From a virus: 64,000 bases of DNA. Location: the IMG/VR virus record IMGVR_UViG_3300022538_000539, positions 1 through 64,000 of that record. The stretch is one strand, 5' to 3'. A program made the translations under genes and the position numbers. Shown piece after piece: positions 143-31,516 of the stretch (its first letter is position 1; every line of letters begins with the position of its first letter). The notes below the pieces were generated by a model that did not search any database, was not told where the DNA came from, and worked only from the letters and a program-made list of their open reading frames with translations.

Positions 143-181
143 AGTGTCTAATGAATAACATTATAAAAAAAGTAGGTGGTG

Positions 182-2410
182 ATGGCAAAAATTAAAAATT
201 TAGAGATTCCTAAATTGCGACACTTTGTTGGCAACAAGACTTATGACAAGATTATTAAGTTTGCCAATGAAATAACTCTCCCTGCTCTTCAAAAAAAAGA
301 TGTTTTTACTCTTCCAGGAATAACTAGCAGAGCTAGATACATTACACCTGACCCACTCAAGTACATTCGTACTTATAGTCCAGACAGTATATCTTATAGT
401 ACATATGAAAAAATGACAGAAGACTACCAAATTCATGCAGGTCTTTGTATTATCAAACTTCCTATTGGTCAGATAACTTGGGACATAAAATGTAAAGACA
501 AAGAAGTTCGTTTATTTGTAAAACAAGAAATCAATAAATTATTACGTGGCTTAGTTAAAAATATGCTCACAGCAATAGAGTATGGTTTTGCACCACACGA
601 GAAAGTTTGGGAAGTAATTGCTGAATATAATCTTCAGGATGATAAGACAGATAAAATTACAACCAAAAAGAATATGGTTATTCTTAAAAAGATTAAATTA
701 GTTAAACCAGATAGTATAACTATAAACAGAGACCAACATCAAGATTACGCAGGACTTACACAAGAAGGAGTAGGTACTATCCCAACAGAGAAAACTCTAC
801 TCTTCTCGCATGATGTCCAATATGGTAATCTTTATGGAAGACCTCGTATTCGTGGAAGCTATCAGCCATGGTATTGGAGTCATCTCATAATTGCTTTTTG
901 TAATCGTTTTCATGAAAGATTTTCACAACCACTTATGTTAGGAAGAGCACCTGTAGGAACAAGTCAGACAGGTGTAGACAAAGATGGAAAACCTATAATG
1001 GAATCTAATATACAACTAATGCAGAATGTACTAGAAAGTGCTCAAGAAAGAACTAGTATAACTATACCGAGTAGTAGAAAAGAAGAAGCAGGATATGATT
1101 TAGAAATGCTTACTAGTGATACAAAGGGACAACAATTCTTGAATTATCTTCGACTTTTAGATGCTTGGAAACTCAGAGGTATGTTCATACCAGAAACAGT
1201 ACTAACTCAACCATATGAGAGTGGGGGAAGTTATGGTCTTGCACGTACACATACTAGTACTTTCATGAAAGGAGAAGAAGACTTAGTAATTAGTATAATA
1301 GATTGTATAAATAAACAACTCATACCTCAGTTAGTTGCTTATAACTATGGAAAGAAAGCACCTAAAGCTACTATGACTTTTTTAGCATTTTCAGATGAAC
1401 TAAGAAAGTTTCTTCAAAAAGTTTATAATAACATGATTCTCAAAGGAACAGCAATAGCAGGAGCTGACGAACTAGCAAGTGAACTCGGTATACCTATAAG
1501 TACAAAAAAAGCAATAGTACCACAAGAACTACCAGTTCCAGACGTTCCAAAAGGGCGAGGAGGAGGAAAACCAGAAGAGGTAGTTCCAAAAGCAAAGAAA
1601 GAAAAAGAAGAATTAAAAGGACATTATTACAATAATAAAGAATTAAAGGATTATGAATTAGTAGTTAATTTTGCAGAAATAGACAATTGGACAGATAAAG
1701 CAAAACAAAAATTTATAAATATAACCAAAAGTTTTAGAAAAAAATATGCAAATGCTATTTTGAAAGACCTTCAAAATGTTTATACAAAAAAACCTAAAAC
1801 AATAAAAAATTTCTTTAAAAAATATAAGACACCATATCTTGAAGAATATCAAGTAGCACTAGAAAAAATACTCAGAGACCTTTTCAAAAAAGGACGCAAG
1901 AGTGTTCGGCAAGAATTAGAAAAACGAATAGAACAAAAAGAATTGCAAGATGATACTCCACCTGATGAATTAATAGAAGATGAAAGAGTTGCAATGGAAG
2001 AACTTGAAGCATCAGCAGTAATAATTGCAATGTTAGATAATGATATACTTAATAGAAAATTATTCTGGGATATTTGGCAATATAGATTAAAGGGACTTGC
2101 TTTTGTTGCTATTATTACTATACTACGTCAAAGAATTTTAGATGAAATTAATAAATCTTTAATTAGAATGATAGGATATGCTGTACAACAAGCATTTATT
2201 TTTGGTAGAACTTTTCAAGCAAAGTTTGATGAAGATTTTTTAACAATAGCATACTATACAGCAATACTAGATAAAAGTACTTGTAGTTCTTGTGAAGGAT
2301 TAGATGGACAGGAATTTGTAGTAGGTTCAAGTGAATATTTTGCAAATATGCCACCCCATATGGATTGTGAAGGTGGAACAAGATGTCGTTGTATGTATAT
2401 CTATAAATAA
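182..2410 (+). CDS. Portal protein fused to minor head (Mu F / SPP1 gp7-like) protein
   Basis: Predicted dodecameric portal at the head vertex, carrying a minor head-morphogenesis domain at its C-terminus. The first ~470 residues match the DUF935/Mu gp29-like portal style, including a patch near residue 135 reading EYGFAPHEKVWEV. A Gly/Lys/Glu-rich linker follows, then a helical segment and a closing Cys/His cluster (CSSC, then HMDCEGGTRCRC) typical of Mu F-like head proteins. In Mu these are two genes; here they are one polypeptide of 742 residues. GTG codons at 176 and 179 are also in frame, but ATG 182 is preferred, with the AGGTGGTG purine tract just before it, although spacing is tight. 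The ligase-like gene follows after 14 bases. Confidence 0.85.
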   Translation: MAKIKNLEIPKLRHFVGNKTYDKIIKFANEITLPALQKKDVFTLPGITSRARYITPDPLKYIRTYSPDSISYSTYEKMTEDYQIHAGLCIIKLPIGQITWDIKCKDKEVRLFVKQEINKLLRGLVKNMLTAIEYGFAPHEKVWEVIAEYNLQDDKTDKITTKKNMVILKKIKLVKPDSITINRDQHQDYAGLTQEGVGTIPTEKTLLFSHDVQYGNLYGRPRIRGSYQPWYWSHLIIAFCNRFHERFSQPLMLGRAPVGTSQTGVDKDGKPIMESNIQLMQNVLESAQERTSITIPSSRKEEAGYDLEMLTSDTKGQQFLNYLRLLDAWKLRGMFIPETVLTQPYESGGSYGLARTHTSTFMKGEEDLVISIIDCINKQLIPQLVAYNYGKKAPKATMTFLAFSDELRKFLQKVYNNMILKGTAIAGADELASELGIPISTKKAIVPQELPVPDVPKGRGGGKPEEVVPKAKKEKEELKGHYYNNKELKDYELVVNFAEIDNWTDKAKQKFINITKSFRKKYANAILKDLQNVYTKKPKTIKNFFKKYKTPYLEEYQVALEKILRDLFKKGRKSVRQELEKRIEQKELQDDTPPDELIEDERVAMEELEASAVIIAMLDNDILNRKLFWDIWQYRLKGLAFVAIITILRQRILDEINKSLIRMIGYAVQQAFIFGRTFQAKFDEDFLTIAYYTAILDKSTCSSCEGLDGQEFVVGSSEYFANMPPHMDCEGGTRCRCMYIYK

Positions 2411-2424
2411 ATAGGAGTTTATGA

Positions 2425-4902
2425 ATGGTTGAAAATTTAAAACAGAAAACTAATTTGGAATTAAGAACTAAACATCAGCAAATACATAATTTGTATAAAC
2501 AAAAAGGGGAACAATCTTTTATAAAAACTCATACTTTAATAATAGTAGAAATGGGAAAAAGAAAAATTAAACATTATGTAGTTTCTGAATTAGATAGACA
2601 AACTAATCTATTAAGAAAAAAAGCAACAAGTACAAATATTATAGAAGAAACCTTAAAAAATAAAAAATTACAATTAGTAAAAGGTGCTTTACTTAAATTT
2701 ATTCAAGGTAAAAAAATTTTACTTGTGGATTATGAATCATCTTTATATGATACTTTACATAAATCAGGATACAATACATATGCTATTGCTTTAGAAAAAG
2801 AAGCAATTTCACCTAAAGTAATATTAGCAAGTAATTTGTATAAAATACCTTTTAATGATAATAATTTTGATACTGTAATATGTTATAAAAAAATTAAAAA
2901 TGAACTCGAAGACAAATTAATAGCAAAAGAATTAATTAGAATATCCTCAAATCAAGTAATCTTTTTACTAGATTTAGATGAAGGTTATTTTGATAGCACA
3001 GAAATATTAAAACAATGGTTAAATACAATAATTACTATACCACATAGTTTAGAATCAATAGGAGAAAATCAAATTGCTGTTCTTGCTTCAAAACAATTAA
3101 CTACTATAAAAAATGAATTAATTAATAATTTAGAAAGTTATATTGTTGTTCCAGATTTTATTCATTTAGTAGGTAGTGCTGTTGATACACCAAATCCTGA
3201 CAAGATAGATATTCTTTTTAGACAAGATTATAGAAATCCAACTTTAGAATTTCAATTTAAGAGGTTATTCCCTAAAGAGATAAGGAAAAAATTCCGTTTT
3301 ATTTATAATCCAGCAGGTGCTGATTCTGGCAATTATATTCCTTTATGTCATCTCGCAGTTATTAAAAAAAGAAATTATAAAAAAATGCATATAAAACCTG
3401 AATCACCTAAATTATTAGTAGGTAAATGGTTTAAACCTTTGAAATCAAAAGGTGGTATAAATAAACTAGAATTTTTTGAATTAGAAAATCTTTGGATAAA
3501 TTGGGCAGAAAGTTTAATTGATAAAGGAATTGCTGTAGAACCTAAATATTATGGATGTAGAATTCAATTACATAAAAAGGGGAAAAATATTGGTCTTTTT
3601 ATAGAAAATGATAAACAAAACCTTTTATATAAATTACCCAATATTCAAGAAGAAATTCTATCGTTTAAAGAAAAAGATTTTATATTAGATGGCAAATTAG
3701 TAATTTATAAATCCGAAGAATTGCCAATGAATAAAAATGAAATTATTAATTATTTATCACAACAAGCAATAGATGATACAAAAATTAAATTATTTCTTTT
3801 TGATTGTTTGAATCACAATGGTGAATATCTAAATAACAAACAATGGGCACAAAGACAAAGTTATTTAAGTAAAATTTTTATAAAAGATTTTAAATACTTA
3901 GAAAAAGTTGCATCAATAATTGTTAGAAGAAAAAGTGATTTATTTGATGCAATTAATCAAGTAAAAGAAATAATGAATAGTGAAGGTGCTATTCTTAAAT
4001 TATTAGACAGTACCTATCCAACAATTGGAAAAACAGATAATTGGGCAGAATTTTCAGAAATCCATGAAATTAATGTAAAAATTAAAGACATACATAGAAT
4101 TAAAAAAGATTTATATAATTATTCAATACAGATACTTGGAGAAAGAGGTCAATCAATAGATTGTGGTACAACTATGAATTCTTCTATTAGATGTAAAGAA
4201 GGGGATATAATTTCAATTGCTGTATTTAAAATTGAAGAAGATAAAGATAAATTTAATTTCTTATATCCTGTAATTAGAAAAAAATTATTGAGTAGAACTA
4301 TTCCTGATACTACTACTCTAGCACGAAGAATTGTTAAAAGAACAATAAATAGAACAGAAAAAGATGTAAATTATTTTTTATACAAATTAACATACAAATT
4401 AGGCACTATTACAATGGAATCAGGAATGAAAGGAAGATATGTTATTCAAACTCATCAAAAAAGAAAGTTTGTTTATTGTGATTTGAGAATGTTAGTAACA
4501 TCTCCAAAAGAAAGAACTTATTTAGAAGGACTTACTCTTGATACTCCTGGTAGTGTTGAAAAAAGAAATAAATTTACTAATCCTAAATTTGATGAAAAGA
4601 TAGTATGTCAAATTAAAGCAAAGCAATTAAAAGCGTGGATGAGAATAGAAGGTAATTACCCAGCAGGAAGTATAGGTGCAACTCGCTATAAATCAGGAAT
4701 TATTAGAATAATTAATAAGGGTAGTTTTATTTGTGGAGTACAAGATGAACATTACAAAGAATTTTGGTTTGAAACAAGTGATAAAAAAATAAAAGGTAGA
4801 TGGATACTACAATACGTACCTATTTCTGAAGGTTGGTCAAAAGTTAAAGGAAAAAGAATTTGGATATTAAGCAAGCCAAAAAAACAAAGTATGGAAACAT
4901 AA
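2425..4902 (+). CDS. Multidomain LigD-like protein beside the portal (methyltransferase-like, nucleotidyltransferase-like, ATP-ligase-like, phosphoesterase-like)
   Basis: Residues ~95-190 look like a degenerate Rossmann methyltransferase (IPFNDNNFDTVI). Residues ~245-265 carry a GSAV...DKIDIL signature resembling nucleotidyltransferases. Residues ~370-600 follow the ATP-dependent DNA ligase core: motif I EPKYYGCR with Lys374, LDGK at 421-424, the FDCLNHNGEYL segment, and EGAILK with Lys525. Residues ~670-815 align with the LigD 3'-phosphoesterase domain (QTH with His677, YCDLR with Asp686 and Arg688, GNYPAG, KIKGRW). Several catalytic residues differ from active enzymes: Asp to Tyr after motif I, Glu to Lys in LDGE, and loss of the second and third phosphoesterase histidines. 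The SD AGGAG precedes ATG. The position suggests a virion or head-assembly role; the enzymatic state is uncertain. Confidence 0.65.
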   Translation: MVENLKQKTNLELRTKHQQIHNLYKQKGEQSFIKTHTLIIVEMGKRKIKHYVVSELDRQTNLLRKKATSTNIIEETLKNKKLQLVKGALLKFIQGKKILLVDYESSLYDTLHKSGYNTYAIALEKEAISPKVILASNLYKIPFNDNNFDTVICYKKIKNELEDKLIAKELIRISSNQVIFLLDLDEGYFDSTEILKQWLNTIITIPHSLESIGENQIAVLASKQLTTIKNELINNLESYIVVPDFIHLVGSAVDTPNPDKIDILFRQDYRNPTLEFQFKRLFPKEIRKKFRFIYNPAGADSGNYIPLCHLAVIKKRNYKKMHIKPESPKLLVGKWFKPLKSKGGINKLEFFELENLWINWAESLIDKGIAVEPKYYGCRIQLHKKGKNIGLFIENDKQNLLYKLPNIQEEILSFKEKDFILDGKLVIYKSEELPMNKNEIINYLSQQAIDDTKIKLFLFDCLNHNGEYLNNKQWAQRQSYLSKIFIKDFKYLEKVASIIVRRKSDLFDAINQVKEIMNSEGAILKLLDSTYPTIGKTDNWAEFSEIHEINVKIKDIHRIKKDLYNYSIQILGERGQSIDCGTTMNSSIRCKEGDIISIAVFKIEEDKDKFNFLYPVIRKKLLSRTIPDTTTLARRIVKRTINRTEKDVNYFLYKLTYKLGTITMESGMKGRYVIQTHQKRKFVYCDLRMLVTSPKERTYLEGLTLDTPGSVEKRNKFTNPKFDEKIVCQIKAKQLKAWMRIEGNYPAGSIGATRYKSGIIRIINKGSFICGVQDEHYKEFWFETSDKKIKGRWILQYVPISEGWSKVKGKRIWILSKPKKQSMET

Positions 4903-4970: not shown

Positions 4971-6821
4971 ATGTCATATGATTATTTACAAGAAGATTTC
5001 GAATTTGATAATTCTATGAATTCAAATGTCAATGCAATTATTGCATTTAAAGAAACTCCTTTATATCATTTTTATACTAAAAAATATGAGAAAGGACAAT
5101 ACAAACCATTTGCAATTGAACTTACTGAAGCAAATATGTATGCTCCTATAATGTTATTTCCTTATGGAACTTTTAATCATCCTATTTATGGCAAATTGAA
5201 ATTTAATGATAAATTTTTCACAGAAATAATGGAAAATTTTAGCAATAAAGTACGAAAAATTCAACCATTTATAGATGAACAACACAATGAAGGAAAAGCA
5301 TTAGGATGGATAACTTATCTCTACTTAGATGAAAAAGGTATGTGGGCAGATATAGATTGGAATGAAGATGGTGTTAATTTAATTAAGAAAGGTAGTTATA
5401 AATACATTTCTCCATGGTTCGGAGATTATGTAGATGAAGAATCAGGACAAGAGTACTCTAATGTACTCTATGGTGCTGCTCTTACTAACAGACCATTCTT
5501 GAAAGTAATGCCACCAATACAACTCTCAGAAGATGGTAAGGAACAAGAAAAATGTAAGATTTTGTATTTTGATGATTTAGAATCACAAGTAAGTGAAAAA
5601 ATAAATATGAATGAAATTAGATTATTAATAGAATCTTTTAATACTACAAAAGATAAAGAAATCAAAAATGCACTTAAAATAAAAATTTTAGATTATTTAA
5701 ACTTCGCCAAGGGAGGTGAAACACAAAAAATGAATACAAAAGAAAAGAAAACTCAAGTAGAAACAATAGGAAAAACTGACAAAATCATTACTGATGAAGA
5801 AAGAGAAGAAACTAGAAAAAGAACTACTGAAGAGGAAAGGGAAGAAACTAGAAAAAGAGTTGCTGATGGAGAAGTAATAGATGTTAAGAGAAAAGTTATA
5901 GAAGAAGAGATATACGAAATCAAAAGAAAAATTACTGAAGAAAGATTAGATGAAAAATCATATACAGAACTATATGAAAAATTGAAAGAACTAGATGAAA
6001 AGAAATTTCCAGTACCAAAAGGTGTAGATGAAGACAAGGTTAAAAAATGTATTAAAAAAATAAAAGGAACAAATCCAAGAACTAAAAAACCTTACACAGA
6101 TTCTGCAAAATGGGCAATCTGTGTGGCAGCACAACAAAAAGCAAAAGCAGAAGAAACAGAAAAGGTAGAAGAAAAGATAGAAAAACCTAAGAAAGAAGTA
6201 GTAGTAGAAGAAGTAAAAATTGAAAAAACAATTGATATTGAAAAAGTAGCTAAAGAATTAGCTAAAAATGTTAAAGAAACAAAAGAAGAAATTATTGAAG
6301 TAGAAAAAGTAGAAGTCGTAGCAGGTAAAACAGAAACTGATACTATTATAACTGAAAAAGTTGTAGAGGAAAAAGAAGTAATAGAAGAAGTAGTAGAAGA
6401 AAAATTGGAAGAAGAGGTAGACGAAAAGGATAAACTTCTACAAGCAAAAGATAGAGAAATCAGAGAATTAAAAGTTGAAAAAATACTAAATAAAAAATTA
6501 GTAGATAATAAAGTTCTTTCTGAAGTTGCTAAAAAAATAATAAAAGAAATCCTATTAGCAGAAAATACTAAAGAAATTAAATTAGAAGAAGGAGAACCTG
6601 TAGATTTACTTATTGCTTTTGATAAATTATTAGATGAAATACTAGTAATTGATGTATCAACTAAACTTGAAGAAGAAATGGATAAACCAGGAGACACACA
6701 AACACAATTCAATAGAGAAATAACAAGAATTCAAACAGAACATAAGTGTGATTATGAAAAAGCAATGGATATTCTACAAAAAGAAAAACCAGAATTAATG
6801 AAAGAAGCTCTGAGAGAGTAA
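4971..6821 (+). CDS. Mu I-like prohead protease with C-terminal scaffold domain
   Basis: Maturation protease that would cut the scaffold during procapsid maturation. Residues ~60-185 match the phage I-like protease family: FIDEQH (His105), GWITYLYLDEKGMWADI, YKYISPWF (Ser147) and ALTNRPFL. From residue ~254 the chain becomes a long, highly charged Glu/Lys coiled-coil, as expected for a scaffold. Residues ~345-392 hold a small motif common in phage head proteins (FPVPKGVDEDKVKKC ... SAKWAICVAAQQ). The SD AAAGGAGG precedes ATG 4971. An internal start at 5730 (separate entry) would make the scaffold alone, as in Mu I/Z and lambda C/Nu3. Confidence 0.85.
   Translation: MSYDYLQEDFEFDNSMNSNVNAIIAFKETPLYHFYTKKYEKGQYKPFAIELTEANMYAPIMLFPYGTFNHPIYGKLKFNDKFFTEIMENFSNKVRKIQPFIDEQHNEGKALGWITYLYLDEKGMWADIDWNEDGVNLIKKGSYKYISPWFGDYVDEESGQEYSNVLYGAALTNRPFLKVMPPIQLSEDGKEQEKCKILYFDDLESQVSEKINMNEIRLLIESFNTTKDKEIKNALKIKILDYLNFAKGGETQKMNTKEKKTQVETIGKTDKIITDEEREETRKRTTEEEREETRKRVADGEVIDVKRKVIEEEIYEIKRKITEERLDEKSYTELYEKLKELDEKKFPVPKGVDEDKVKKCIKKIKGTNPRTKKPYTDSAKWAICVAAQQKAKAEETEKVEEKIEKPKKEVVVEEVKIEKTIDIEKVAKELAKNVKETKEEIIEVEKVEVVAGKTETDTIITEKVVEEKEVIEEVVEEKLEEEVDEKDKLLQAKDREIRELKVEKILNKKLVDNKVLSEVAKKIIKEILLAENTKEIKLEEGEPVDLLIAFDKLLDEILVIDVSTKLEEEMDKPGDTQTQFNREITRIQTEHKCDYEKAMDILQKEKPELMKEALRE
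5730..6821 (+). CDS. Nested scaffold protein from an internal start
   Basis: An ATG at 5730, in frame with the protease gene (codon 254), is preceded by the near-perfect SD GGGAGGTGA at 5711-5719 with a 10-base spacer. It would yield a 363-residue, Glu/Lys-rich, largely helical protein with no protease domain. That is the classical arrangement of capsid protease and scaffold in Mu and lambda. What I see is the SD, the frame and the composition; production of a separate scaffold is inference from the family. The next genes are the decoration and major capsid proteins. Confidence 0.7.
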   Translation: MNTKEKKTQVETIGKTDKIITDEEREETRKRTTEEEREETRKRVADGEVIDVKRKVIEEEIYEIKRKITEERLDEKSYTELYEKLKELDEKKFPVPKGVDEDKVKKCIKKIKGTNPRTKKPYTDSAKWAICVAAQQKAKAEETEKVEEKIEKPKKEVVVEEVKIEKTIDIEKVAKELAKNVKETKEEIIEVEKVEVVAGKTETDTIITEKVVEEKEVIEEVVEEKLEEEVDEKDKLLQAKDREIRELKVEKILNKKLVDNKVLSEVAKKIIKEILLAENTKEIKLEEGEPVDLLIAFDKLLDEILVIDVSTKLEEEMDKPGDTQTQFNREITRIQTEHKCDYEKAMDILQKEKPELMKEALRE

Positions 6822-6896
6822 AAACAATTAATTAACTTATATAATAATATTTTAAATTTCTATAATAAAGTCTATTCCTTAAAAGACATAGGGATG

Positions 6897-6927
6897 GAGG
6901 AGGTTGGCAATACAATTGCCTATCCTC
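6897..6927 (+). promoter_or_regulatory. Leader hairpin upstream of the decoration-protein gene
   Basis: GGCAAT (6906-6911) pairs perfectly with ATTGCC (6915-6920) across a three-base loop. Outside it GAGGA (6897-6901) pairs with TCCTC (6923-6927). The lower stem buries a spare GGAGGAGG sequence, while the true SD (GGGAGGTGG) lies about 20 bases downstream. It may stabilise or tune translation of the abundant capsid mRNA. Upstream (6840-6866) there are TATAAT-like hexamers without a convincing -35. Confidence 0.5.
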
Positions 6928-6963
6928 TAATACAAAGTAGGGAAAAGGGAGGTGGACAATTAA

Positions 6964-7362
6964 ATGGCTCAAACTAGTATATATGGATTAGCAAAATCGT
7001 TTAAGGCAGCAGCAGACTATTCAACAACAGGACAATACTTATTTGTAGTAGAAAGTGCTGAAGGTGAATGTACAACTGCTGGTACTGCATCAGAATTCGT
7101 TATGGGTGTTCTACAAAATAAGCCAGAACAATATAAGTCAGCAAGAATTAGGATTGAAGGAACTACAAAACTAACTTCTGGAGACACTATTGTAATTAAT
7201 GATTTAATTGCTACAGATGCAAGTGGTAAGGGAGTTCCTATTACACCTGTAACATCTGGAGAAGTTATTAATCATATTCGTGGCGTAGCACTAACAGCAG
7301 CAAGTGTAGCAGATAAAACTTTTGAAATTCATCTAATAAATATGATTGCCTTAACTGCGTAA
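6964..7362 (+). CDS. Head decoration protein (DUF2190 family-like)
   Basis: A 132-residue protein lying between scaffold and major capsid gene, where capsid-stabilising decoration proteins sit. Small residues, Thr/Ser and beta strands dominate (SGDTIVINDLIATDASGKG, VINHIRGVALTAA), as in DUF2190 proteins. In contrast to most of the genome it is not Lys-rich, as is common for abundant virion proteins. A strong SD (GGGAGGTGG) precedes ATG. The leader contains a hairpin and the downstream gap contains a 14-bp hairpin. Confidence 0.7.
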   Translation: MAQTSIYGLAKSFKAAADYSTTGQYLFVVESAEGECTTAGTASEFVMGVLQNKPEQYKSARIRIEGTTKLTSGDTIVINDLIATDASGKGVPITPVTSGEVINHIRGVALTAASVADKTFEIHLINMIALTA

Positions 7363-7455: not shown

Positions 7456-7507
7456 CTTTCTAAAAATATTTAACCTTTATTTTATAAAAACAGAGGTGAC
7501 AAAAAAA

Positions 7508-8419
7508 ATGCCTTTAAGTATAAGCGAAATTCACATAAACGAACCTTTAACAAACTTATCAGTAGCATATAGACCTGATGGTTTTGTAGCAAGAAGTTTA
7601 TTCCCAGTTCTTTCTGTTAAGAAAGAATCTGACATGTTCTTCACATATGGAAAAGAAAGTATGAAGATTTATGATGGTTTAAGAGCACCTGGTGCACCAT
7701 CCGTTGAAATCGATTACTCAATAGATACTGATACGTATTCTTGCGACGAAGAATCATACAAGCACGTAATTCCTGGTAGAATCAAAGATAATGCAGATAA
7801 ACCTCTTGACCCATTCAAAGATGCTACACTTTTCTTGAGTGATGTAATAATTACAAAAGAAGAGTATCATGCATATGCAGCAGCAACTCACGTAACAAGT
7901 GGTTTAGGAGAAGCAGCACACAAAACTACTCCTGGTACTCTTTGGGATGCAGCAACTGGTTCTACACCTGTTGAAGATATAGACAATGCAAAAGAAATAA
8001 TTCGTGGTAAGGTTTTCAAAGAACCTAATACTATGTTATTACCTCAAACTGTATTGGATGCTCTAAAAACTAATGCAGATATACTCAATAGAATTAAATA
8101 TACAAAACTTGGTGTTGTAACAATAGACCTATTAAGTGCTATTTTTGGGTTAAACGTTATAATAGCAAGAAGCGGATATGTAACAGATGCACTTGCTCAC
8201 ACATACATTTGGAACAAAGATGTTATAATTGCTTATGTTACTCCAAGACCTGGTTTAAGAACTGTATCCTTTGGATACACTTTCTTGGCTAGAGATAAAA
8301 GAGTACGTAAGTGGTTTGATAACGAAAGAGAAGCAGATATGATAGAAGTAAGTTCAATCTACGACCACAAGATAGTTTGCCAAGATGCTGGATACATGCT
8401 TGAAAACGTTATTGCTTAA
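7508..8419 (+). CDS. Major capsid protein
   Basis: A 303-residue protein that forms the capsid shell (HK97 fold expected). It follows protease/scaffold and decoration genes. The N-terminus (LSVAYRPDGFVARSLFPVLSV) and the segment RIKDNADKPLDPFKDAT are the style of capsid proteins found with Mu-like head genes. Sequence from residue ~150 onward contains VEDIDNAKEII and LPQTVLDALKTN, also typical of the family. A GTG at 7496 is in frame, but ATG 7508 fits better, with the SD AGAGGTGA at 7492-7499 eight bases before it. Flanking hairpins on both sides may protect this mRNA. Confidence 0.85.
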   Translation: MPLSISEIHINEPLTNLSVAYRPDGFVARSLFPVLSVKKESDMFFTYGKESMKIYDGLRAPGAPSVEIDYSIDTDTYSCDEESYKHVIPGRIKDNADKPLDPFKDATLFLSDVIITKEEYHAYAAATHVTSGLGEAAHKTTPGTLWDAATGSTPVEDIDNAKEIIRGKVFKEPNTMLLPQTVLDALKTNADILNRIKYTKLGVVTIDLLSAIFGLNVIIARSGYVTDALAHTYIWNKDVIIAYVTPRPGLRTVSFGYTFLARDKRVRKWFDNEREADMIEVSSIYDHKIVCQDAGYMLENVIA

Positions 8420-10293: not shown

Positions 10294-11277
10294 ATGCCTA
10301 TAATTAGAAGTACAGAAGGATATTTAGGATTTGGTAAACAAAATGCACAAGGTACTGCCGTAACACCTACAGAACGTATATACTTATCAGGAGCAGAATC
10401 AATAGAAGCAACTCAAGAATTTGAAAACTACTGGGAACAAACAGGAGAGAGATTTCCTAGTTTTACTCTTAAAAAATTCCATAAACATGATGGTGGATTT
10501 CCTGCTTTTCTAAGACCAGATATTGGTGGTTATTTAACTGCTATGTTTGTAGGTGCAGATAATAAGTCAGGTACTACAGTTCCTTATACTCATATATTAA
10601 CAGTTGCTGATAGTGTTCCTTGGATGTCAATAGAACGTCAAGTAGGAGATACAGATAATGGTATTATAGAAAGAATAGCAGATTGTAAGTTTAATAATCT
10701 TACTATTTCAGCAGAAGCAGGAGTACCTGTAGTAATGGAAATGGAATTTCTTGGAACTCAAGCATCAATCGAAACAACTGCATCAACAGCAAGTTATGAT
10801 ACACAAAAACCATTTACTTTCAATCACGGAACTTTTACATTAGATGGTGGTACTACTACTGAAATTACTGCTTTTAGTTTATCTATGTCAAATAATCTAT
10901 CAGGAGATATTTTCTCTAGTGAAATTACAAGAGAAGATATACTTGAATTAGGATTTTCAGTTGATGTATCTTTTACTCTAAAATTTGTTGACACAGATTG
11001 GTATAAGAAAATATACTATGGTGGAACAGCAGGAACAGCTGTTCAAGATGAATTGTATTCAGGAGATTTTGATGTTGATTTAACTTATGGTAGTGGTACT
11101 GATGCAAGAGGTTATAAAATAGAACTTGAAAAAGTATACTTTACAACAGGAGCAGTCCACTTAACAAGCGAAGCAGAACCTATATACCAAGATTGCGAAG
11201 GATATATGGTTAAACCAGATTCTGGAACAGCAATTACAATAACAGTAAAAAATACTGACGACTCAGAATATCTATAA
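10294..11277 (+). CDS. Major tail tube protein
   Basis: A 327-residue, beta-rich, Gly/Thr-rich protein followed by the G/GT chaperone pair and the tape measure, which is the standard place of the tail tube gene. The block TEGYLGFGKQNAQGTAVTPTERIYLSG matches the N-terminus of long-tailed phage tube proteins. It is poor in lysine compared with its neighbours, as expected for an abundant virion protein. A strong SD AAAGGAGGTG precedes ATG. The ~100-base leader contains a TGTGTTATAACACA palindrome. Confidence 0.75.
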   Translation: MPIIRSTEGYLGFGKQNAQGTAVTPTERIYLSGAESIEATQEFENYWEQTGERFPSFTLKKFHKHDGGFPAFLRPDIGGYLTAMFVGADNKSGTTVPYTHILTVADSVPWMSIERQVGDTDNGIIERIADCKFNNLTISAEAGVPVVMEMEFLGTQASIETTASTASYDTQKPFTFNHGTFTLDGGTTTEITAFSLSMSNNLSGDIFSSEITREDILELGFSVDVSFTLKFVDTDWYKKIYYGGTAGTAVQDELYSGDFDVDLTYGSGTDARGYKIELEKVYFTTGAVHLTSEAEPIYQDCEGYMVKPDSGTAITITVKNTDDSEYL

Positions 11278-11339
11278 AAATAAATAATTAACAATTTAAG
11301 CCAGCAGTAAAATTTTATTTATAAGGAGGATTGAAAAAG

Positions 11340-11756
11340 TTGCCTATTAAATTAATAAATATAGACAGAATGTTATGTGAAGATATACCAATTCAGTTTG
11401 GTGGTAAAAAATACATTATCAAATCTGCTATTCCAGGTTTTATTACAGAAGAATTTTTGAATATAGCACAAGAATTAGCTGATAAAGACTTTATGGTGGA
11501 TTATGAGTTAGGTATGAAATATCTTCAAATAATTACAAAATTATTTCAAGCAAATGGACATGAAGTTACATTTGAAGAATTAAAACAATCAGGAGTTAGT
11601 GTAAGTCAAATTGTACTGCTGGCTGATTTAATTATAAGACTAATGTGGTTTAGACCAGATGATGTTCTTACAGTAACAGGTGAAATAAAAAAAGCAGAGA
11701 AGCTTCTGACAATCAGGAAACAGAAGATACAGCCGACCAAGAAGAAAAAGAAGTAG
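11340..11756 (+). CDS. Tail assembly chaperone G
   Basis: First part of the lambda G/GT-type chaperone pair that coats the tape measure during tail assembly. It is small, lies between tube and tape measure, and ends in a Lys-rich tail. The SD AAGGAGG (11323-11329) is only one base from the TTG at 11331, so the in-frame TTG at 11340, with a 10-base spacer, is the better start. A slippery A7 stretch at 11687-11693 should send some ribosomes into the -1 frame (next entries). Confidence 0.7.
   Translation: MPIKLINIDRMLCEDIPIQFGGKKYIIKSAIPGFITEEFLNIAQELADKDFMVDYELGMKYLQIITKLFQANGHEVTFEELKQSGVSVSQIVLLADLIIRLMWFRPDDVLTVTGEIKKAEKLLTIRKQKIQPTKKKKK
11687..11693 (+). promoter_or_regulatory. -1 ribosomal frameshift slippery site (A AAA AAA G)
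   Basis: The heptamer is read A-AAA-AAA in the frame of chaperone G. After a -1 slip the codons remain AAA AAA. The -1 frame has stops at 11651, 11660 and 11681 but is then open from 11684 through the downstream reading frame to 11986. Position near the end of G is typical for tail chaperones. Confidence 0.75.
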
Positions 11757-11761
11757 ATTTA

Positions 11762-11986
11762 ATGCAGTTTTATGCTAGTGTGTCTAAGATGTCTGGTATT
11801 GATTGGCATACTTTGCGAAAAAAATATTCTTTGCTACAAATGATTGCTATTGCAGAAGCATATACTGAATTAAATAAACAAGCAGAAGAACAAATGAATA
11901 TACCACAATACAAGAAAAACTTCAGGTCAAAATTAAATATTTTAAGAAAAGCTGAAGTAGCACATACTAAAAGAACTAAAAAATAA
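11762..11986 (+). CDS. Tail assembly chaperone T domain, expressed as G-T fusion by -1 frameshift
   Basis: This reading frame lies in the -1 frame relative to chaperone G and is continuous with it back to the slippery site at 11687-11693. Shifting there gives a G-T protein of about 215 residues, with an acidic Glu/Asp-rich linker and this T domain (FYASVSKMSGIDW, LRKKYSLLQMIAIAEAY). The ATG at 11762 has no good SD, so independent translation is unlikely. The T domain normally recruits tail-tube subunits to the tape measure. Confidence 0.75.
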   Translation: MQFYASVSKMSGIDWHTLRKKYSLLQMIAIAEAYTELNKQAEEQMNIPQYKKNFRSKLNILRKAEVAHTKRTKK

Positions 11987-12002
11987 TTTAAGGAATTAAA
12001 CT

Positions 12003-12149
12003 ATGAGTTATGTAAAATGGGGAAAGTCTTTATCTGATTGGTTTAATGATGAAATTAAAAAAATACAGATAAGATGTGAAAAGAAAAAAATTATATCTAT
12101 TTGGGATTTAAACCCTAAAAAAAGGAGAATTATAAAAAATGCCAGCTAA
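12003..12149 (+). CDS. Small basic protein before the tape measure
   Basis: A 48-residue frame (MSYVKWGKSLSDWFNDEI...) with an AAGGAA SD. It overlaps the tape-measure start by 11 bases. It is Trp- and Lys-rich with no recognised domain. Its position between the G/GT chaperones and the tape measure, and tight packing, support a real gene; it could instead be the remnant of a third chaperone frame. Confidence 0.45.
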   Translation: MSYVKWGKSLSDWFNDEIKKIQIRCEKKKIISIWDLNPKKRRIIKNAS

Positions 12150-15100
12150 ATTTGGATATACAGGTGGTGGTATGGGTGGTACAGGAACTACTGATATTCT
12201 ATTTCGTATGCGTGGTGATGCCAAACAACTAATAGGAGTAATAGGTGGTGTCGTAGGTGCATTCAAAGCAATGGATGTAAGTGCTACTATGATGGCAGCA
12301 AAAGTGACTAAAGGTTTTGATGTAATGAGTATTGCTATTGCAGGCATTGGTGCTATAACATTAGGATTTATGGCAAACTTTGCTAAATCTGCCGCAAGAA
12401 TAGAAGAGTTAGATGCTGTTTTGAAACTTGTAGCAGGTAGATTAGGATACACAGCACACGAAATTGATGGTATGATAAAGGAATTAGTAGAATATGGTAT
12501 TAGTATGGAAGTTGCTCGCCAATCACTCTTAACATTCACTCATGCTCATATGAAATTAGAAGAAGCAGTAAAATTAGCAAGAGTAGCCCAAGACCTTGCT
12601 GTTATTTCAGGACAGGACTCATCACAAACTTTCCAACATTTAACACTTGCTGTTGCAAAAGCAAATACTCGTATGCTTATGACTTTTGGTATTCTGACTA
12701 CAAATATAGCAGCATGGAGAACTCATGCTGAAGAAATAGGTAAAACTGTAGATGAACTAACTATTTTTGAAAAAAGACAAGCAGTTCTTAATGCTATATT
12801 CAAAGAATCAGAAGCAATGGCTGGAGCATATGAAATGGCTATGACTACTTCTGCTAAACAGTTAAGAACTTTCAACAGATATATCAAGGACTTGAAAGTA
12901 GAATTAGGTCAAGCACTACTTCCTGTATTTAATACTGTAATTTATAGTGCTACAAAAATGTTTGCAGCATGGAGAAATCTTTCAGATGGTACAAAAGGAC
13001 TTATAGGCAATGTTATGGTACTTGGTGGTACTTTTTTGATTGTCACAGGGAGTGTAATGAAACTTCTTTCTGCAGTAGATAAATTAGCAGATAGTTATGT
13101 TGCTTATTCTAATGCAGTACTAGCAGGAAATATAGAAATGCAAATTGCTAAAGCAAATATAATGTCTTGGGGATTAGCAGCAGGTACTATTGCTTTAATT
13201 ATAACTGGATTAGTGTATAGTTGGCAACAACAACAAAAAATAATAAGAGAAGCAAATGAAGAATTAGAAGAACATACTAAAATAGCAAAACATCTTGAAA
13301 TAGAATTAAGAAGACTAAAAGCAGAATTAGAAGCAGGAACTATAACTAATTTAGAATATACTGAAGCAGAATTAAAATTAAAAAAACAAATAGAAGAAAA
13401 TATTTATACATTTGAAGATTACATAGATAAACTTGGTATTCTTGCTAAACTTAGAATATTAGAAGCTAAAGGATTGACACATACAGTGCCATTATTTGCA
13501 GTTCAAGCAGACGCAATAAAACAAGCAGTTGTAGAATATGAAGCAATAACTGGTGAAATACTAGATTTAACAGAGTTACTTCCTCTCTTAACAAAAGTAA
13601 TGGGAGAACAAACTGTTGCAGAATTACTAGGAACACAAGCAGCAAAAAAACGTGAAGAAGCAGAAATGAAATTAAGAAGAGCATTTGAAGCAAGAAGACT
13701 AGCAGAAGAACTTGTTCAAAAACAAATAGAAGAACATGCGGAAACTATAGAACCTTTGAAAATGATGTATAAAGATTATTTAAATATTCAGTTAGATGTA
13801 GCAAAGAAAGAAGAAGATTTAGCAGATATAACAACTGACCTAATAGACCTAAGAAAAAAAGAAAATGAATTAATTCATGGTAAAACTACTGTAGTAATAT
13901 CAGCAGAAAAAGCATCAGATAAACATATTAAAGCATTAGAAAGAGAAAAATCAACATGGGTGACTCTTGATAAAGCCAAAAGAAGAGAAGCAAAAGGTGC
14001 AACAACAAGAGAACAACTGAATAAAAAAATAGAAGTATCACAAAGTAAATACAATAGAGCACTTGCAGATAGAATTGAATTAGAAGGAAAATTAGGTGGT
14101 ATTACTAAAACTACATTTGGTACAGAAGAAGAAATACTAGAAGTTCAAACAGAAATTGCTACAAAAATATTAGAAGAAAAACATGGTAGAGAAGAATTAA
14201 TAGAACTTCAAGAAAAACAAAGAACTGCTGTTTGGATGCTAAATAGCGAACTACTTGAAAATATAAAAGCAACAGAACGATTTTCAGAAGGTATTGTTAC
14301 ACTTCCAGAAGTCATAGAATTTTGGATAGAAAATAATATTTGGAAAAGTAAAGAAGAATTAGAAATCTTTGAAGAATTAGCAAAAAAATTAGAATATGTT
14401 GAAGGTAAATTCTTTATGGATGCTGAAGGTGCTTTATTTGATATCGAAGAATTAGGCAAAAGATATGGTTTATTAGAAGCACTCTTTGGAAAAGAAATGG
14501 CTATTAAATTAACTACTGTATGGGCACAAGAAGAAATAAAAACATTAAAAACTAAGACAGAAGGTTTAAAAGCAGATATTGAAGCAATTAATGACTTATT
14601 TACAGGAAAAAAACCTATAACAGTTGGTAAAGCATTCTGGCGACAAGAAATTGAAGATTTACAAAAAGAATTAGATATTGCAGAAAGTGATATTAAAACT
14701 TTATCAGCATTTCCATTTAATTTAGATACTACTGAAGCAGAAAAAAAAGTTGAAGATTTAGAAACTAGTATAGAAGAACTTCCAGGAGAACATAAAGTAA
14801 AAGTAGATATAGATAAAAGCGAATTTGATAGAGGACTTAATTATATTATTCGAAAATTAAATACAATATCTAGTGTTTCAGTTAGAGTAAATGTTTCAGC
14901 ACCAAGTTTACCTAGTATAGAAACAAGATTGAGTAAAATAGGTAAATATGGATTTCAATATGGAGGAATTTTTAGTCAACCAACTCTTGGATTAATTGGT
15001 GAAAAAGGAACAGAAGCAGTTATTCCTTTGACTAAGAAGTCTCCTTATCCAACAATACAACAAATGCAAAAAATGCTTGGAATAATACCATTCCAATATG

Positions 15101-28846: not shown

Positions 28847-28922
28847 TGGAGCCAGCAGTCGGGTTCGAACCGACGACCTGTTCATTACAAGTGAACTGCT
28901 CTGCCAACTGAGCTACACTGGC
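28847..28922 (-). tRNA. tRNA-Thr(TGT)
   Basis: Acceptor GCCAGTG pairs with TGCTGGC, allowing wobble. The anticodon loop CTTGTAA lies in a GTTCA/TGAAC stem, the T-loop is TTCGAAC, and CCA is encoded. It abuts the next tRNA with no spacer. Confidence 0.9.
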
Positions 28923-28997
28923 TGGAACTGGTGATGGGACTTGAACCCACAAAACTGACTTGGAAGGACAGCATTTTGCCAATTAAATTACACCAGC
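28923..28997 (-). tRNA. tRNA-Gly(TCC)
   Basis: Acceptor GCTGGTG/CACCAGT, anticodon loop CTTCCAA, T-loop TTCAAGT, CCA encoded. The anticodon stem has one T-T mismatch. Confidence 0.85.
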
Positions 28998-29072
28998 TGG
29001 GGTAAGTGGCGAGACTTGAACTCGTATCTCATTGGTTCACAGCCAACACGCATTAACTTATGCTACACTTAC
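28998..29072 (-). tRNA. tRNA-His(GTG)
   Basis: Acceptor GTAAGTG/CACTTAC, anticodon loop CTGTGAA, discriminator C73 as expected for His, CCA encoded. The base before position 1 is C, so the usual G-1 is not encoded. Confidence 0.88.
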
Positions 29073-29073
29073 G

Positions 29074-29147
29074 TGGCAAATCCACAAGGACTCGAACCTT
29101 GAACTTCTGTTTTGGAGACAGATATTTTTCCATTAAACTATGGATTT
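29074..29147 (-). tRNA. tRNA-Trp(CCA)
   Basis: Acceptor AAATCCA/TGGATTT, anticodon loop CTCCAAA, T-loop TTCGAGT, discriminator G and CCA encoded. Anticodon CCA reads only UGG, consistent with UGA being a stop in this genome. Confidence 0.9.
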
Positions 29148-29223
29148 TGGTAACAGAGGAGGGACTTGAACCCCCAACCTTCTGGATGTAAGCCAGACAA
29201 TCTACCATTGATAATACTCTGTT
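29148..29223 (-). tRNA. tRNA-Val(TAC)
   Basis: Acceptor AACAGAG/CTCTGTT, anticodon loop CTTACAT in a TCTGG/CCAGA stem, T-loop TTCAAGT, A73 and CCA encoded. Confidence 0.9.
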
Positions 29224-29297
29224 TGGCTGAGAAGAAAGGATTCGAACCTCTATCAATGGATTCAAAGTCCACTATCCTACCATTAGACGACTTCTCA
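29224..29297 (-). tRNA. tRNA-Gln(TTG)
   Basis: Acceptor TGAGAAG/CTTCTCA, anticodon loop CTTTGAA, discriminator G73, CCA encoded. Upstream on the minus strand its 5' end directly follows a CCA-ended mini-hairpin (29298-29324). Confidence 0.88.
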
Positions 29298-29324
29298 TGG
29301 ATTTAGTTATTATTTAAACTAAAT
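29298..29324 (-). ncRNA. CCA-ended mini-hairpin in the tRNA array
   Basis: On the minus strand ATTTAGTT pairs with AACTAAAT across an 8-base loop and is followed at once by CCA, which abuts the 5' base of tRNA-Gln. The spacing is that of a tRNA 3' end. It may be the relic of a lost tRNA or a deliberate mini-substrate for tRNA enzymes. Confidence 0.45.
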
Positions 29325-29357
29325 TTTTTATTAAACCATAAAATATAATTATCAAAT

Positions 29358-29434
29358 TGGTATTCAGGGTAGGACTCGAACCTACATTAAACAGATTCTA
29401 AGTCTGCTGTGTTTGCCAATTACACCACCTGAAC
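29358..29434 (-). tRNA. tRNA with Leu anticodon TAG, short variable loop
   Basis: Acceptor GTTCAGG/CCTGAAT, D stem GTGT/ACAC, anticodon loop CTTAGAA, T stem GTAGG/CCTAC, A73 and CCA encoded. The variable loop is only about five bases (class I), unlike normal bacterial tRNA-Leu, which has a long variable arm. Confidence 0.85.
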
Positions 29435-29512
29435 TGGTGCTTGAAACAGGATTCGAACCTGTATAAAATGGATTTTGAATCCACTATGTTTGCCTAATTA
29501 CATCATTCAAGC
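29435..29512 (-). tRNA. tRNA with Leu anticodon CAA, short variable loop
   Basis: Acceptor GCTTGAA/TTCAAGC, D stem ATGT/ACAT, anticodon loop TTCAAAA, T-loop TTCGAAT, A73 and CCA encoded. The variable loop is about five bases, so it lacks the class II arm expected for Leu. Confidence 0.85.
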
Positions 29513-29589
29513 TGGTGTACAAGGTCAGATTCGAACTGACAAAAGATGGATTTTAAGTCCATTATGTTTACCAATTACATCACTTGTAC
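29513..29589 (-). tRNA. tRNA with Leu anticodon TAA, short variable loop
   Basis: Acceptor GTACAAG/CTTGTAC, D stem ATGT/ACAT, anticodon loop CTTAAAA in an ATGGA/TCCAT stem, A73 and CCA encoded. The variable loop is about five bases. It is clearly related to the two preceding Leu-anticodon tRNAs. Confidence 0.85.
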
Positions 29590-29666
29590 TGGTAGCGGGA
29601 GTGGGATTCGAACCCACGACCTTCTGGTTATGAGCCAGTTTATCTACCTGACTGATATATCCCGCT
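29590..29666 (-). tRNA. tRNA-Met(CAT), elongator-like
   Basis: Acceptor AGCGGGA/TCCCGCT, anticodon loop CTCATAA, T-loop TTCGAAT, CCA encoded. There is no C1-A72 mismatch and no run of three G-C pairs in the anticodon stem, so it is not an initiator. Lysidine-modified Ile cannot be excluded. Its first base is shared with the neighbouring CCA. Confidence 0.82.
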
Positions 29667-29742
29667 GGTCAGAGTGAAAAGATTTGAACTTTTGACCTCA
29701 TGTTCCCAAAACACGCGTTCTACCAGACTGAACTACACTCTG
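29666..29742 (-). tRNA. tRNA-Pro(TGG)
   Basis: Acceptor CAGAGTG/CACTCTG, anticodon loop TTTGGGA in a CGTGT/ACATG stem, T-loop TTCAAAT, A73 and CCA encoded. Confidence 0.9.
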
Positions 29743-29819
29743 TGGTGGAACGAACAGGACTCGAACCTACATCTTCCTGATTAAAAGTCAGACGCTTTAC
29801 CATATTAAGCTATCGTTCC
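29743..29819 (-). tRNA. tRNA-Lys(TTT)
   Basis: Acceptor GGAACGA/TCGTTCC, anticodon loop CTTTTAA, T-loop TTCGAGT, A73 and CCA encoded. Confidence 0.9.
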
Positions 29820-29822
29820 TAG

Positions 29823-29895
29823 TTGTATTGATGAGATTTGAACTCATATCTTGATGATTAAGAGTCATCTGTTTTACCAATTAAACTACAATACT
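29823..29895 (-). tRNA. tRNA-Lys(CTT)
   Basis: Anticodon loop CTCTTAA in a GATGA/TCATC stem, T-loop TTCAAAT. The acceptor pairs only GTATTG/CAATAC cleanly. The 3' end reads CTA instead of CCA, so it is the only tRNA here without an encoded CCA. It may be slightly decayed. Confidence 0.8.
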
Positions 29896-29971
29896 GGCTG
29901 TGCAGGTAGGATTCGAACCTACATCTTTGGGATTAACAGTCCCACATTTTACCAATTAATACTACTACACA
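29895..29971 (-). tRNA. tRNA-Asn(GTT)
   Basis: Acceptor TGTGTAG/CTGCACA with one G-T pair, anticodon loop CTGTTAA, T-loop TTCGAAT, G73 and CCA encoded. A CCA-ended mini-hairpin lies directly upstream. Confidence 0.88.
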
Positions 29972-29998
29972 TGGATTATAAGTCCTCACGCTTATAAT
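29972..29998 (-). ncRNA. CCA-ended mini-hairpin in the tRNA array
   Basis: On the minus strand ATTATAAG pairs with CTTATAAT across the 8-base loop CGTGAGGA, followed at once by CCA next to the 5' end of tRNA-Asn. A related hairpin without CCA lies at 30007-30024. Confidence 0.45.
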
Positions 29999-30006
29999 AC
30001 TACAAT

Positions 30007-30024
30007 ATAAGTCCCTGTGCTTAT
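30007..30024 (-). ncRNA. Hairpin related to the CCA-ended mini-hairpin
   Basis: ATAAG pairs with CTTAT around the 8-base loop CACAGGGA, similar in position and purine pattern to the loop CGTGAGGA of the neighbouring hairpin. The remaining sequence to 30089 is AT-rich with no gene seen. Confidence 0.3.
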
Positions 30025-30089
30025 CAAAGGCAACCTATATAATTTTATCTCTTATCAAAATTTATGATAATTTTTTATATTAGATATTT

Positions 30090-30178
30090 TGGCGGAAGAG
30101 ACAGGATTCGAACCTGTGTGGGTTTTACCCCAATGGATTAGCAGTCCATCTCGATAAACCTGACTCTGACACTCTTCC
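30090..30178 (-). tRNA. tRNA-Ser(GCT)
   Basis: Acceptor GGAAGAG/CTCTTCC, anticodon loop CTGCTAA, a proper class II variable arm (TGGGG/CCCAC), G73 and CCA encoded. An HNH gene separates it from the next tRNA. Confidence 0.9.
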
Positions 30179-30186
30179 TGGATTAA

Positions 30187-30609
30187 TTATTTCTCCTTCA
30201 ATCCATATTTTCCATCAAACCATTTCAAATAATCATCAATTCCTTGTTTTCCATATTTATAATAAATATAATCATATGCTCTTTGATGTAATAATCCATG
30301 TTTTGAATTTGATAATAATATAATTTCATCATTATTTTCTTTTAAATAAATATGATGCTTACATAATATATTTCTTGCTTTTTCTCTAAATTCAGAATTT
30401 TGCCATTGTTTCTTTGTTGCTATCCTTAAATTTTTTTTATGTTCATCAGTTAATTTTCTACCTGTAAGTGCTTTGCTTATTTTTTTTCTAGTTTTTTCAG
30501 AATATTTTTTAGTTTTTAAATTATGTCCATTAATATACTTATTTCCTAATTTTACAATTTGTCCACATCCACACTTACAATATTTTATTTTAATTTCACA
30601 TAATTTCAT
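30187..30609 (-). CDS. NUMOD3/HNH-type homing endonuclease in the tRNA array
   Basis: A 140-residue basic protein. Residues ~10-20 hold a small Cys cluster (CKCGCG). NUMOD3 DNA-binding repeats follow (SEKTRKKISKALTGRKLTDEHKKNL), then a His-rich nuclease end (LCKHHIYLKENNDEIILLSNSKHGLLH). It sits cleanly between two tRNA genes and does not interrupt either. It ends close to the tRNA-Ser 5' side, after AATCCA. It is related to the HNH at 32681-33160 in the last 60 residues. Confidence 0.75.
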   Translation of the reverse strand: MKLCEIKIKYCKCGCGQIVKLGNKYINGHNLKTKKYSEKTRKKISKALTGRKLTDEHKKNLRIATKKQWQNSEFREKARNILCKHHIYLKENNDEIILLSNSKHGLLHQRAYDYIYYKYGKQGIDDYLKWFDGKYGLKEK

Positions 30610-30642
30610 TTTATTCTCCTAATTGATATAAATATTAAATTC

Positions 30643-30728
30643 TGGTAGACGAGGTAGGATTCGAACCTACGAAGCTCTCAGCAATGGTATATAAGACCAT
30701 CTCCTTTAACCTGCTTGGATACTCGTCC
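30643..30728 (-). tRNA. Class II tRNA with Ile anticodon TAT
   Basis: Acceptor GGACGAG/CTCGTCT, anticodon loop CTTATAT in an ATGGT/ACCAT stem, A73 and CCA encoded. It has a long variable arm of ~13 bases (GCT/AGC stem), which tRNA-Ile never normally has. The body closely resembles the tRNA-Tyr at 31682-31767, so this looks like a Tyr-type body with a changed anticodon. Confidence 0.82.
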
Positions 30729-30817
30729 TGGTAGACAGGATAGGATTTGAACCTATGAAACTTTAATAGTAATGGCATATCAGACCATTCTCTTTGACCA
30801 AACTTGAATACCTGTCC
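30729..30817 (-). tRNA. Class II tRNA with Ile anticodon GAT
   Basis: Acceptor GGACAGG/CCTGTCT, anticodon loop CTGATAT in an ATGGT/GCCAT stem, A73 and CCA encoded, and a ~15-base variable arm with an ACT/AGT stem. With its neighbour it is the only source of Ile anticodons in the set. Confidence 0.82.
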
Positions 30818-30889
30818 TGGAGACAGAGAGGGGAGTCGAACCCCTGTGGATAGTTTTGCAGACTACCTCGATTCCAAATCTACTCTGTC
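30818..30889 (-). tRNA. tRNA-Cys(GCA)
   Basis: Acceptor GACAGAG/CTCTGTC, anticodon loop CTGCAAA, T-loop TTCGACT, CCA encoded. The D arm is short (GAT/ATC around TTGGA). Confidence 0.83.
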
Positions 30890-30965
30890 TGGTGGAGAAA
30901 TTTGGAATTGAACCAAAACCTACAGGTCTTCAACCTATCGTGCAGACCTCTTACACCATTTCTCC
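30890..30965 (-). tRNA. tRNA-Phe(GAA)
   Basis: Acceptor GGAGAAA/TTTCTCC, anticodon loop TTGAAGA in an ATAGG/CCTGT stem, T-loop TTCAATT, A73 and CCA encoded. Its 5' base touches the stop codon of the neighbouring HNH gene. Confidence 0.88.
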
Positions 30966-31420
30966 TATCTTATTTGATTATGACATCTAATACATAAAGT
31001 TAATAAATTATCTAATTTATTATTTTTCTTATTATCATTAATATGATGAACATGCAATTTTTGATTATATTTTTTAATATATTCCTCCTGAGTTATTCCA
31101 CATTTTTGACAAATATGATTATCTCGTTCCCTAATAAATTCTTTTAACTTATTATTAAATTCTGGAGAATAAGGTTCAAATGATTTGCCACCTTGCCAAT
31201 TAGGATTATTTTTACCTCTCATAATTTTTTTAATTGTTTTTCTATATTTAGGATTTTTCCAAACTTGTTCCATACTTTTACTAACACTTATGCTTATATT
31301 TTTCCTATGTTCTTCAGTAAGTTTTTTACCTTTATGTGCTTTACTTATTTTCTTTTTAACTTTTTTAGAAACTATATGTCCTTTAACAAATCTTCCTTTA
31401 TTATTTCTATCTTTGTTCAT
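30965..31420 (-). CDS. NUMOD3-HNH homing endonuclease in the tRNA array
   Basis: A 151-residue protein with NUMOD3-type repeats (KKVKKKISKAHKGKKLTEEHRKN), then NNPNWQGG and a C-terminal HNH nuclease: CQKC, VHHINDNKKNN and LCIRCH. It lies between tRNA-Phe and tRNA-Asp and touches the tRNA-Phe 5' end. It shares its C-terminal half with the HNH at 27762-28208. Confidence 0.8.
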   Translation of the reverse strand: MNKDRNNKGRFVKGHIVSKKVKKKISKAHKGKKLTEEHRKNISISVSKSMEQVWKNPKYRKTIKKIMRGKNNPNWQGGKSFEPYSPEFNNKLKEFIRERDNHICQKCGITQEEYIKKYNQKLHVHHINDNKKNNKLDNLLTLCIRCHNQIR

Positions 31421-31439
31421 TTTTATCCCCCATATTTTT

Positions 31440-31516
31440 TGGCGACACTAACGGGATTTGAACCCGTATCTCTTGCGTGACAGGCAAGTGTCATAACCTG
31501 ATTAGACCATAATGTC
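31440..31516 (-). tRNA. tRNA-Asp(GTC)
   Basis: Acceptor GACATTA/TAGTGTC, anticodon loop CTGTCAC in a CTTGC/GCAAG stem, G73 and CCA encoded. Confidence 0.9.

Follow-up and report, generated by a model that had tools for sequence, protein, structure and literature searches.

A probably degenerate member of a portal-linked family of viral polyproteins with DNA repair-type domains

The window analysed here comprises bases 1-64000 of a 115,399-base IMG/VR virus record. Near its start, on the + strand, a single open frame of 825 codons spans exactly positions 2425-4902, with an AGGAG ribosome site upstream and a third-position GC content of 10%; a frame of this length would arise by chance with a probability of about 5e-31 in DNA of 27.6% GC. 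The open frame, the codon statistics and the profile matches described below mark it as one whole gene for a four-part protein of 825 aa. As a preliminary description of this DNA had noted, the gene adjoins that of the portal, which lies directly upstream (176..2410, +). The portal is Mu-like (Portal_Mu, E 1.5e-28; phrog_113, E 6e-49) and continues into a MuF-like C-terminus; its match to the SPP1 gp7 family (E 4.5e-5) lies under the family cut-off. Directly downstream is a Mu-like I protease (4971..6821, +; Mu-like_Pro, E 8e-15) with a long charged C-terminus that is a probable scaffold, and the major head protein is encoded at 7496..8419 (+; phrog_1005, E 3e-67). Since the window also encodes a bacterial-type DNA polymerase III alpha subunit, RecA and 26 tRNA genes, the last clustered on the minus strand at 28847-31999, the host is most likely a bacterium. 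Three glycosyltransferase genes (40680-41843 and 52597-54947), a ParB-like gene (42181-43077) and a C5 DNA methylase gene (62874-63782) are present as well.

From N to C terminus, the protein consists of a class-I methyltransferase-like part (aa 95-222, 2707..3090), a Pol-beta-type nucleotidyltransferase (NTase)-like part (aa 233-320, 3121..3384), an ATP-ligase core made of an adenylation domain (aa 329-545, 3409..4059) and an OB-fold domain (aa 546-645, 4060..4359), and a LigD-type 3'-phosphoesterase (PE)-like domain (aa 665-825, 4417..4899), all on the + strand. An N-terminal helical module (HxxxH ... EMxxRxxxH; 2458..2604, +) is common, by alignment, to the relatives L006, L007, L018 and L042. 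When the window protein was searched alone with Pfam, the ligase was the sole confident domain and the other three parts stayed below threshold, so relatives were needed for the assignment. Profiles built from relatives, with the window excluded, matched the window protein at E 1.1e-5 for the methyltransferase, 3.4e-19 for the NTase, 2.1e-47 for the ligase and 9.8e-28 for the PE, while the best score from 200 shuffled copies was 6.8 bits across all four tests. The four parts proposed in the preliminary description, with the ligase before the PE, were thus each recovered.

In the ligase, Pfam DNA_ligase_A_M matches aa 366-541 (E 8e-21), the ligase profile finds DNA ligases in the PDB with E down to 1e-25, and the predicted window structure superposes aa 329-645 on DNA ligase I (Z 23.4, 304 residues, 3.8 A), the match extending through the OB fold to aa 641-645. 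The model of the whole window protein is of modest quality (mean pLDDT 69.5), and it is poor over the NTase part. The methyltransferase part of relatives matches Methyltransf_11 with E 1e-8 to 1e-17. For the NTase, a profile search of the PDB gave chance matches only, with no solved structure reached by sequence, so that the assignment rests on the motif G[GS]...D-x-D...D in a 19-sequence alignment; it is the least certain of the domain assignments.

The PE has no Pfam match in the window protein, and LigD_N matched none of the 11 PE members of the family. Its fold was assessed on the domain of relative L007, modelled alone (mean pLDDT 87.2), to which the window is linked by homology. Six LigD-type PE entries lead the structure matches (Z 9.0-13.2, the best being 3p43 over 123 residues at 2.5 A), followed by an entry at Z 4.5; Foldseek placed its best LigD-PE entry at E 1.5e-4, and the PE profile returned only two PDB matches up to E 10, both LigD-PE chains (E 0.3, no more than suggestive). 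The preliminary description had held that its reading would fail if domain searches did not return ligase or phosphoesterase folds, and both came back, the former in the window and the latter in L007. In BFVD, the L007 PE model also matched an unnamed viral protein of 827 aa, A0A516LT18 (E 3.4e-4), a possible further relative.

Relatives were sought by tblastn in 50,697 phage records and by motif scans of IMG/VR contigs. The former gave one window-like match, the 'ATP-dependent DNA ligase' AJP62006 of the archaeal virus ANMV-1; the latter, with QDxHYKEF, YWEGGExF and VExKYNG, yielded L006, L007, L018, L020, L027, L031, L041, L042, L044, L048, L050, L053 and L055-L061. No useful family member came from searching viral contigs with a single protein, whether the window protein, the window portal or the ANMV-1 protein. 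In L008/L009 the equivalent parts are divided among several frames. Altogether, more than 20 other viral records, ANMV-1 among them, contain relatives, although the independent lineages are fewer than the records because some are near-copies or overlap (e.g. L017/L018/L051 and L055/L056/L058/L060). An ordinary archaeal DNA ligase from a genome-contig scan (L005) and a protein from a Halobaculum plasmid, its gene not surrounded by head genes, were set aside, and the matches of L006 in Bacillus and Lactococcus phages were ordinary ligases or XkdF alone.

The position of the gene among head genes is a property of the family. Wherever neighbours could be read, a portal or MuF gene lies upstream and a scaffold or capsid gene downstream. 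In L006, L018 and L042 the order is terminase, portal, MuF, polyprotein gene, scaffold and capsid protein; L020 and L044 show it as far as their contigs extend, and every identifiable neighbour on the remaining contigs is consistent with it. Portals of unrelated types occur at these loci, as do three kinds of protease: a separate Mu-like I protease in the window, a protease/major-head gene after the polyprotein gene in L027, and XkdF in most relatives. The slot of the polyprotein is therefore kept while portal and protease types change. In twelve members (L006, L018, L020, L031, L042, L044, L048, L050, L053, L055, L057 and L059) the polyprotein itself carries XkdF, the head-maturation protease, as a C-terminal fusion, and in L007 XkdF is the next gene, not fused. 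XkdF (PF14550) was not found in the 115 kb record of the window phage, nor in the L027 and ANMV-1 records; the fusion is common in the family, not universal.

The family core, as read from sequence, would comprise the Pol-beta-type NTase, the ATP-ligase core and the LigD-type PE, with variable added enzymes and usually a C-terminal XkdF. A D12 DNA adenine methylase domain is added in L042 and a metallo-beta-lactamase fold in L027, and in the L055 group the PE precedes the ligase. Two D12 stretches were also seen at the polyprotein N-terminus in L059 (1-5136), and a uracil-DNA glycosylase (UDG) domain (E 4e-15) between ligase and PE in L050 (1860-4874, - strand). L041 has a polyprotein reduced to PE and XkdF, with no ligase found in its 100 kb record, and a 1208 aa MuF-like protein (10352-13978, - strand) that matches the HipA_C kinase weakly (E 0.0016). 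Just upstream of the L007 polyprotein, at 5312-7246, is a MuF-like protein with a DRAT-type ADP-ribosyltransferase domain (E 5e-11). At 6875-7900 in L018, the N-terminal ~330 aa of the product look kinase-like by eye (SFPDLWMRN...YYIDYEGETF), without a Pfam match. The ANMV-1 'MutT-like phage hydrolase' (L002, KP703175.1, 1913-3193), upstream of the ligase gene, is a portal (PF06381, E 3e-22; phrog_146, E 2e-30).

Comparison of catalytic residues sets the window protein apart from its relatives. In the methyltransferase, the window has VDYESS where relatives have the glycine-rich SAM loop GxGxG. In the NTase, Asp262 alone is left of the three carboxylates, Lys260 and His309 having replaced the others, while the D-x-D and the third Asp are intact in 18/18 other aligned sequences. 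The metal-site motif of the PE (4447..4488, +) reads Gln675-x-His677 ... Tyr684-x-Asp686-Leu-Arg688, with His at the Tyr684 position in relatives; H...H-x-D is intact in all 18 other sequences in which the motif was found, ANMV-1 lacking the preceding Gln and the following Arg. Aligned with PaLigD, His677 corresponds to His42 and Asp686 to Asp50, both kept, and Tyr684 to the lost His48; alanine at any one of these three positions kills PaLigD, each residue being essential (PMC8656161). Of the missing phosphoesterase histidines reported earlier, the loss at His48 therefore stands, whereas His42 is present, and the His84 position is not special to the window since it is replaced in almost the whole family.

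The ligase changes reported earlier agree with the alignment. Motif I (3544..3555, +), usually KxDG and in this family KxNG, reads Lys374-Tyr-Tyr-Gly377 in the window, with Tyr376 for Asp; motif III (3685..3696, +), usually DGE, reads Leu421-Asp-Gly-Lys424, with Lys for Glu; motifs IV/V (3979..3999, +; Ser519-Glu520-Gly521...Lys525) are intact, so that Lys374, Glu520 and Lys525 of the catalytic set are kept. Among bacterial-type members, motif I is KxNG in 16/18, KFGG in L042 and KYYG in the window. This need not mean an inactive ligase, since the ligase of African swine fever virus (ASFV) carries Asn at this position and yet ligates (PMC6344480), a stand-alone animal virus enzyme that provides a parallel at the residue level only. 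At motif III (n=18), Glu is found in eight members (L027, L048, L055-L057 and L059-L061), Asp in seven, Cys in one, Ser in one and Lys in the window; since the Glu is replaced in about half, ligation is uncertain even in the relatives.

At positions that do not vary in the other members, the window keeps 11 of 28 residues in the methyltransferase, 4 of 7 in the NTase, 16 of 26 in the ligase and 15 of 21 in the PE, and in three of the four parts it has lost more of them than any other member. It alone breaks the NTase, PE and methyltransferase signatures, the other members having mostly intact active sites. At least three of its four parts thus look catalytically broken, and much of the family may be active with the window copy as an outlier. 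The losses fit relaxed constraint, and a long branch alone could yield the same: in the tree, the window, the only sequence of its type known (n=1), has a long branch and falls to the non-KxDG side, with weak support. The preliminary description had missed that the protein belongs to a separate family, linked to the portal, in which the other members retain most active sites, and that most of the alterations are specific to the window phage.

The earlier label 'LigD-like' is apt in part. LigD and stand-alone LigD-type 3'-phosphoesterases resemble the family in the ATP-ligase core and PE joined in a single chain, in the PE fold (Z 9-13 for the L007 domain) and in the metal-site residues of relatives. 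Unlike LigD, the family has no POL (AEP) domain, carries an extra NTase and methyltransferases, places the ligase before the PE (reversed in the L055 group) and is located at the portal, and the window copy has changed catalytic residues. Pfam gave no match to a POL primase-polymerase domain in the window protein, and the NCBIfam LigD models match it over the ligase part only. Neither Ku nor an NAD-dependent ligase was found in 12 viral records, several of which are fragments, and the host may supply Ku. To judge from its sequence, the window protein is not LigD proper, having no POL domain, a different order and no Ku found, nor is it a canonical DNA ligase, with two motif residues changed.

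Another comparison is with AJP62006, from a virus of uncultured archaea whose description never mentions 'ligase' in its main text (PMC4372165). It is homologous to the window protein over NTase, ligase and PE (24% identity, E 5e-29) and its gene adjoins the portal gene; it differs in its archaeal setting, in lacking the methyltransferase part, in an extra C-terminal stretch, and in having KFDG and GE intact. The family also resembles the polyvalent proteins, with P1 DarB as archetype, large multi-enzyme chains encoded with portal-terminase head genes, and shares with them several enzymatic domains in a single chain in that context. Polyvalent proteins in portal/MuF contexts are thought to be packaged and delivered, and Mu gp30, with a predicted inactive RNase-like domain, is a precedent among them (Iyer et al. 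2017, PMC5512222). DarB itself is a head-packaged and probably delivered protection protein whose gene neighbours those for the prohead protease and the portal (PMC9024508). An NTase-ligase-PE core joined to a maturation protease is a different domain set; the main text of the polyvalent-protein paper does not mention LigD, DNA ligase or XkdF (PMC5512222), and we found no description of such a protein in the open-access papers that were covered, although an earlier account may exist elsewhere. Repair-type domains in a head gene cluster, called unexpected at the outset, are so as a domain set, but the slot is one that holds delivered enzymes in other phages.

Taken together, the reading we favour, at roughly 60%, is that the window gene is a degenerate member of a family of portal-linked DNA repair and modification polyproteins, likely non-catalytic here, whose relatives are carried in the virion. 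Loss of catalysis is proposed because the methyltransferase, NTase and PE have lost catalytic residues and the ligase has altered ones; carriage of repair or modification functions is favoured because of the DNA-repair domain set, the protease fusion and the DarB-like slot. To go by sequence, the domains are those used in DNA strand-break or base-excision repair, and the protease fusion points to incorporation in the prohead. From the observed domains, residues, synteny and fusions we infer the following course for intact relatives. The polyprotein would be made together with the head genes and enter the prohead through its protease part; its enzyme part would be freed by cleavage during maturation, remain in the head and travel with the DNA, on which it would clean 3' ends, add nucleotides and seal nicks, some relatives also methylating DNA or removing uracil. 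In the window phage, fold, frame and position are kept while activity would have been lost, and the protein most likely serves, with no catalytic role, as a DNA- or nucleotide-binding component inside the head. On this reading the early idea of a virion protein, or of domains put to another use, would have been right, packaging being predicted. Weighing against the favoured reading are the lack of XkdF in the record of the window phage, whose protease is of another kind and separately encoded, the motif III changes in relatives and the modest quality of the window model.

Three other readings bear on the same observations. An enzyme that works at the portal in the infected cell, mending nicks and 3' ends during packaging and never delivered, would account for the linkage to portal and protease, for the repair set of NTase, PE and ligase (with UDG in L050), and for the polyprotein being the sole ligase found in most of these viral records. 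We consider it unlikely, as fusion to a protease that is incorporated in the prohead favours a location within the head, and effector-type domains are present in adjoining MuF proteins (DRAT in L007 and, weakly, HipA_C in L041). Less probable still is that a KxNG ligase, NTase and PE repair cleaved tRNAs early in infection: the L027 ligase also matches Pfam RNA_ligase (E 1.4e-6), jumbo phages have NTases alongside RNA ligases (PMC7824862) and the window phage has its many tRNA genes, yet by profile and fold the ligase core is closest to DNA ligases, and the substrate of the accessory enzymes, D12 methylases and UDG, is DNA. Least probable of all is that, throughout the family, the enzyme folds have a purely structural role, in head or scaffold, and never act on nucleic acid. 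The invariable head-cluster position, the alteration of motif III in many members and the loss of most catalytic residues from the window copy would fit it, but across deep divergence the relatives keep the carboxylates of the NTase, the metal site of the PE and the glycine motif of the methyltransferase, which makes a catalysis-free reading hard to sustain.

Beyond this locus, the favoured reading suggests a wider proposal, which we hold tentatively and at slightly less than even odds: that bacterial and archaeal tailed viruses have a single-chain DNA repair kit in the head, produced as a fusion with the maturation protease, and deliver it with the genome, which it mends or marks on entry. 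The kit would consist of the Pol-beta-type NTase, a KxNG ligase and the LigD-type PE, at times with a glycosylase and a DNA methylase, and in some lineages, that of the window phage included, it would have become a pseudoenzyme part of the head. If the predictions for the intact relatives are right, the virions of tailed phages would contain the phage's own machine for processing ends and sealing nicks, its output matched to that of the capsid through fusion with the capsid's maturation protease. Such a machine would tie the maturation of the capsid to counter-defence and to genome repair on entry, and the repair of phage genomes by virion proteins would become directly testable. The window copy would then clearly exemplify the conversion of a multi-domain enzyme into a head protein that has no catalytic role.
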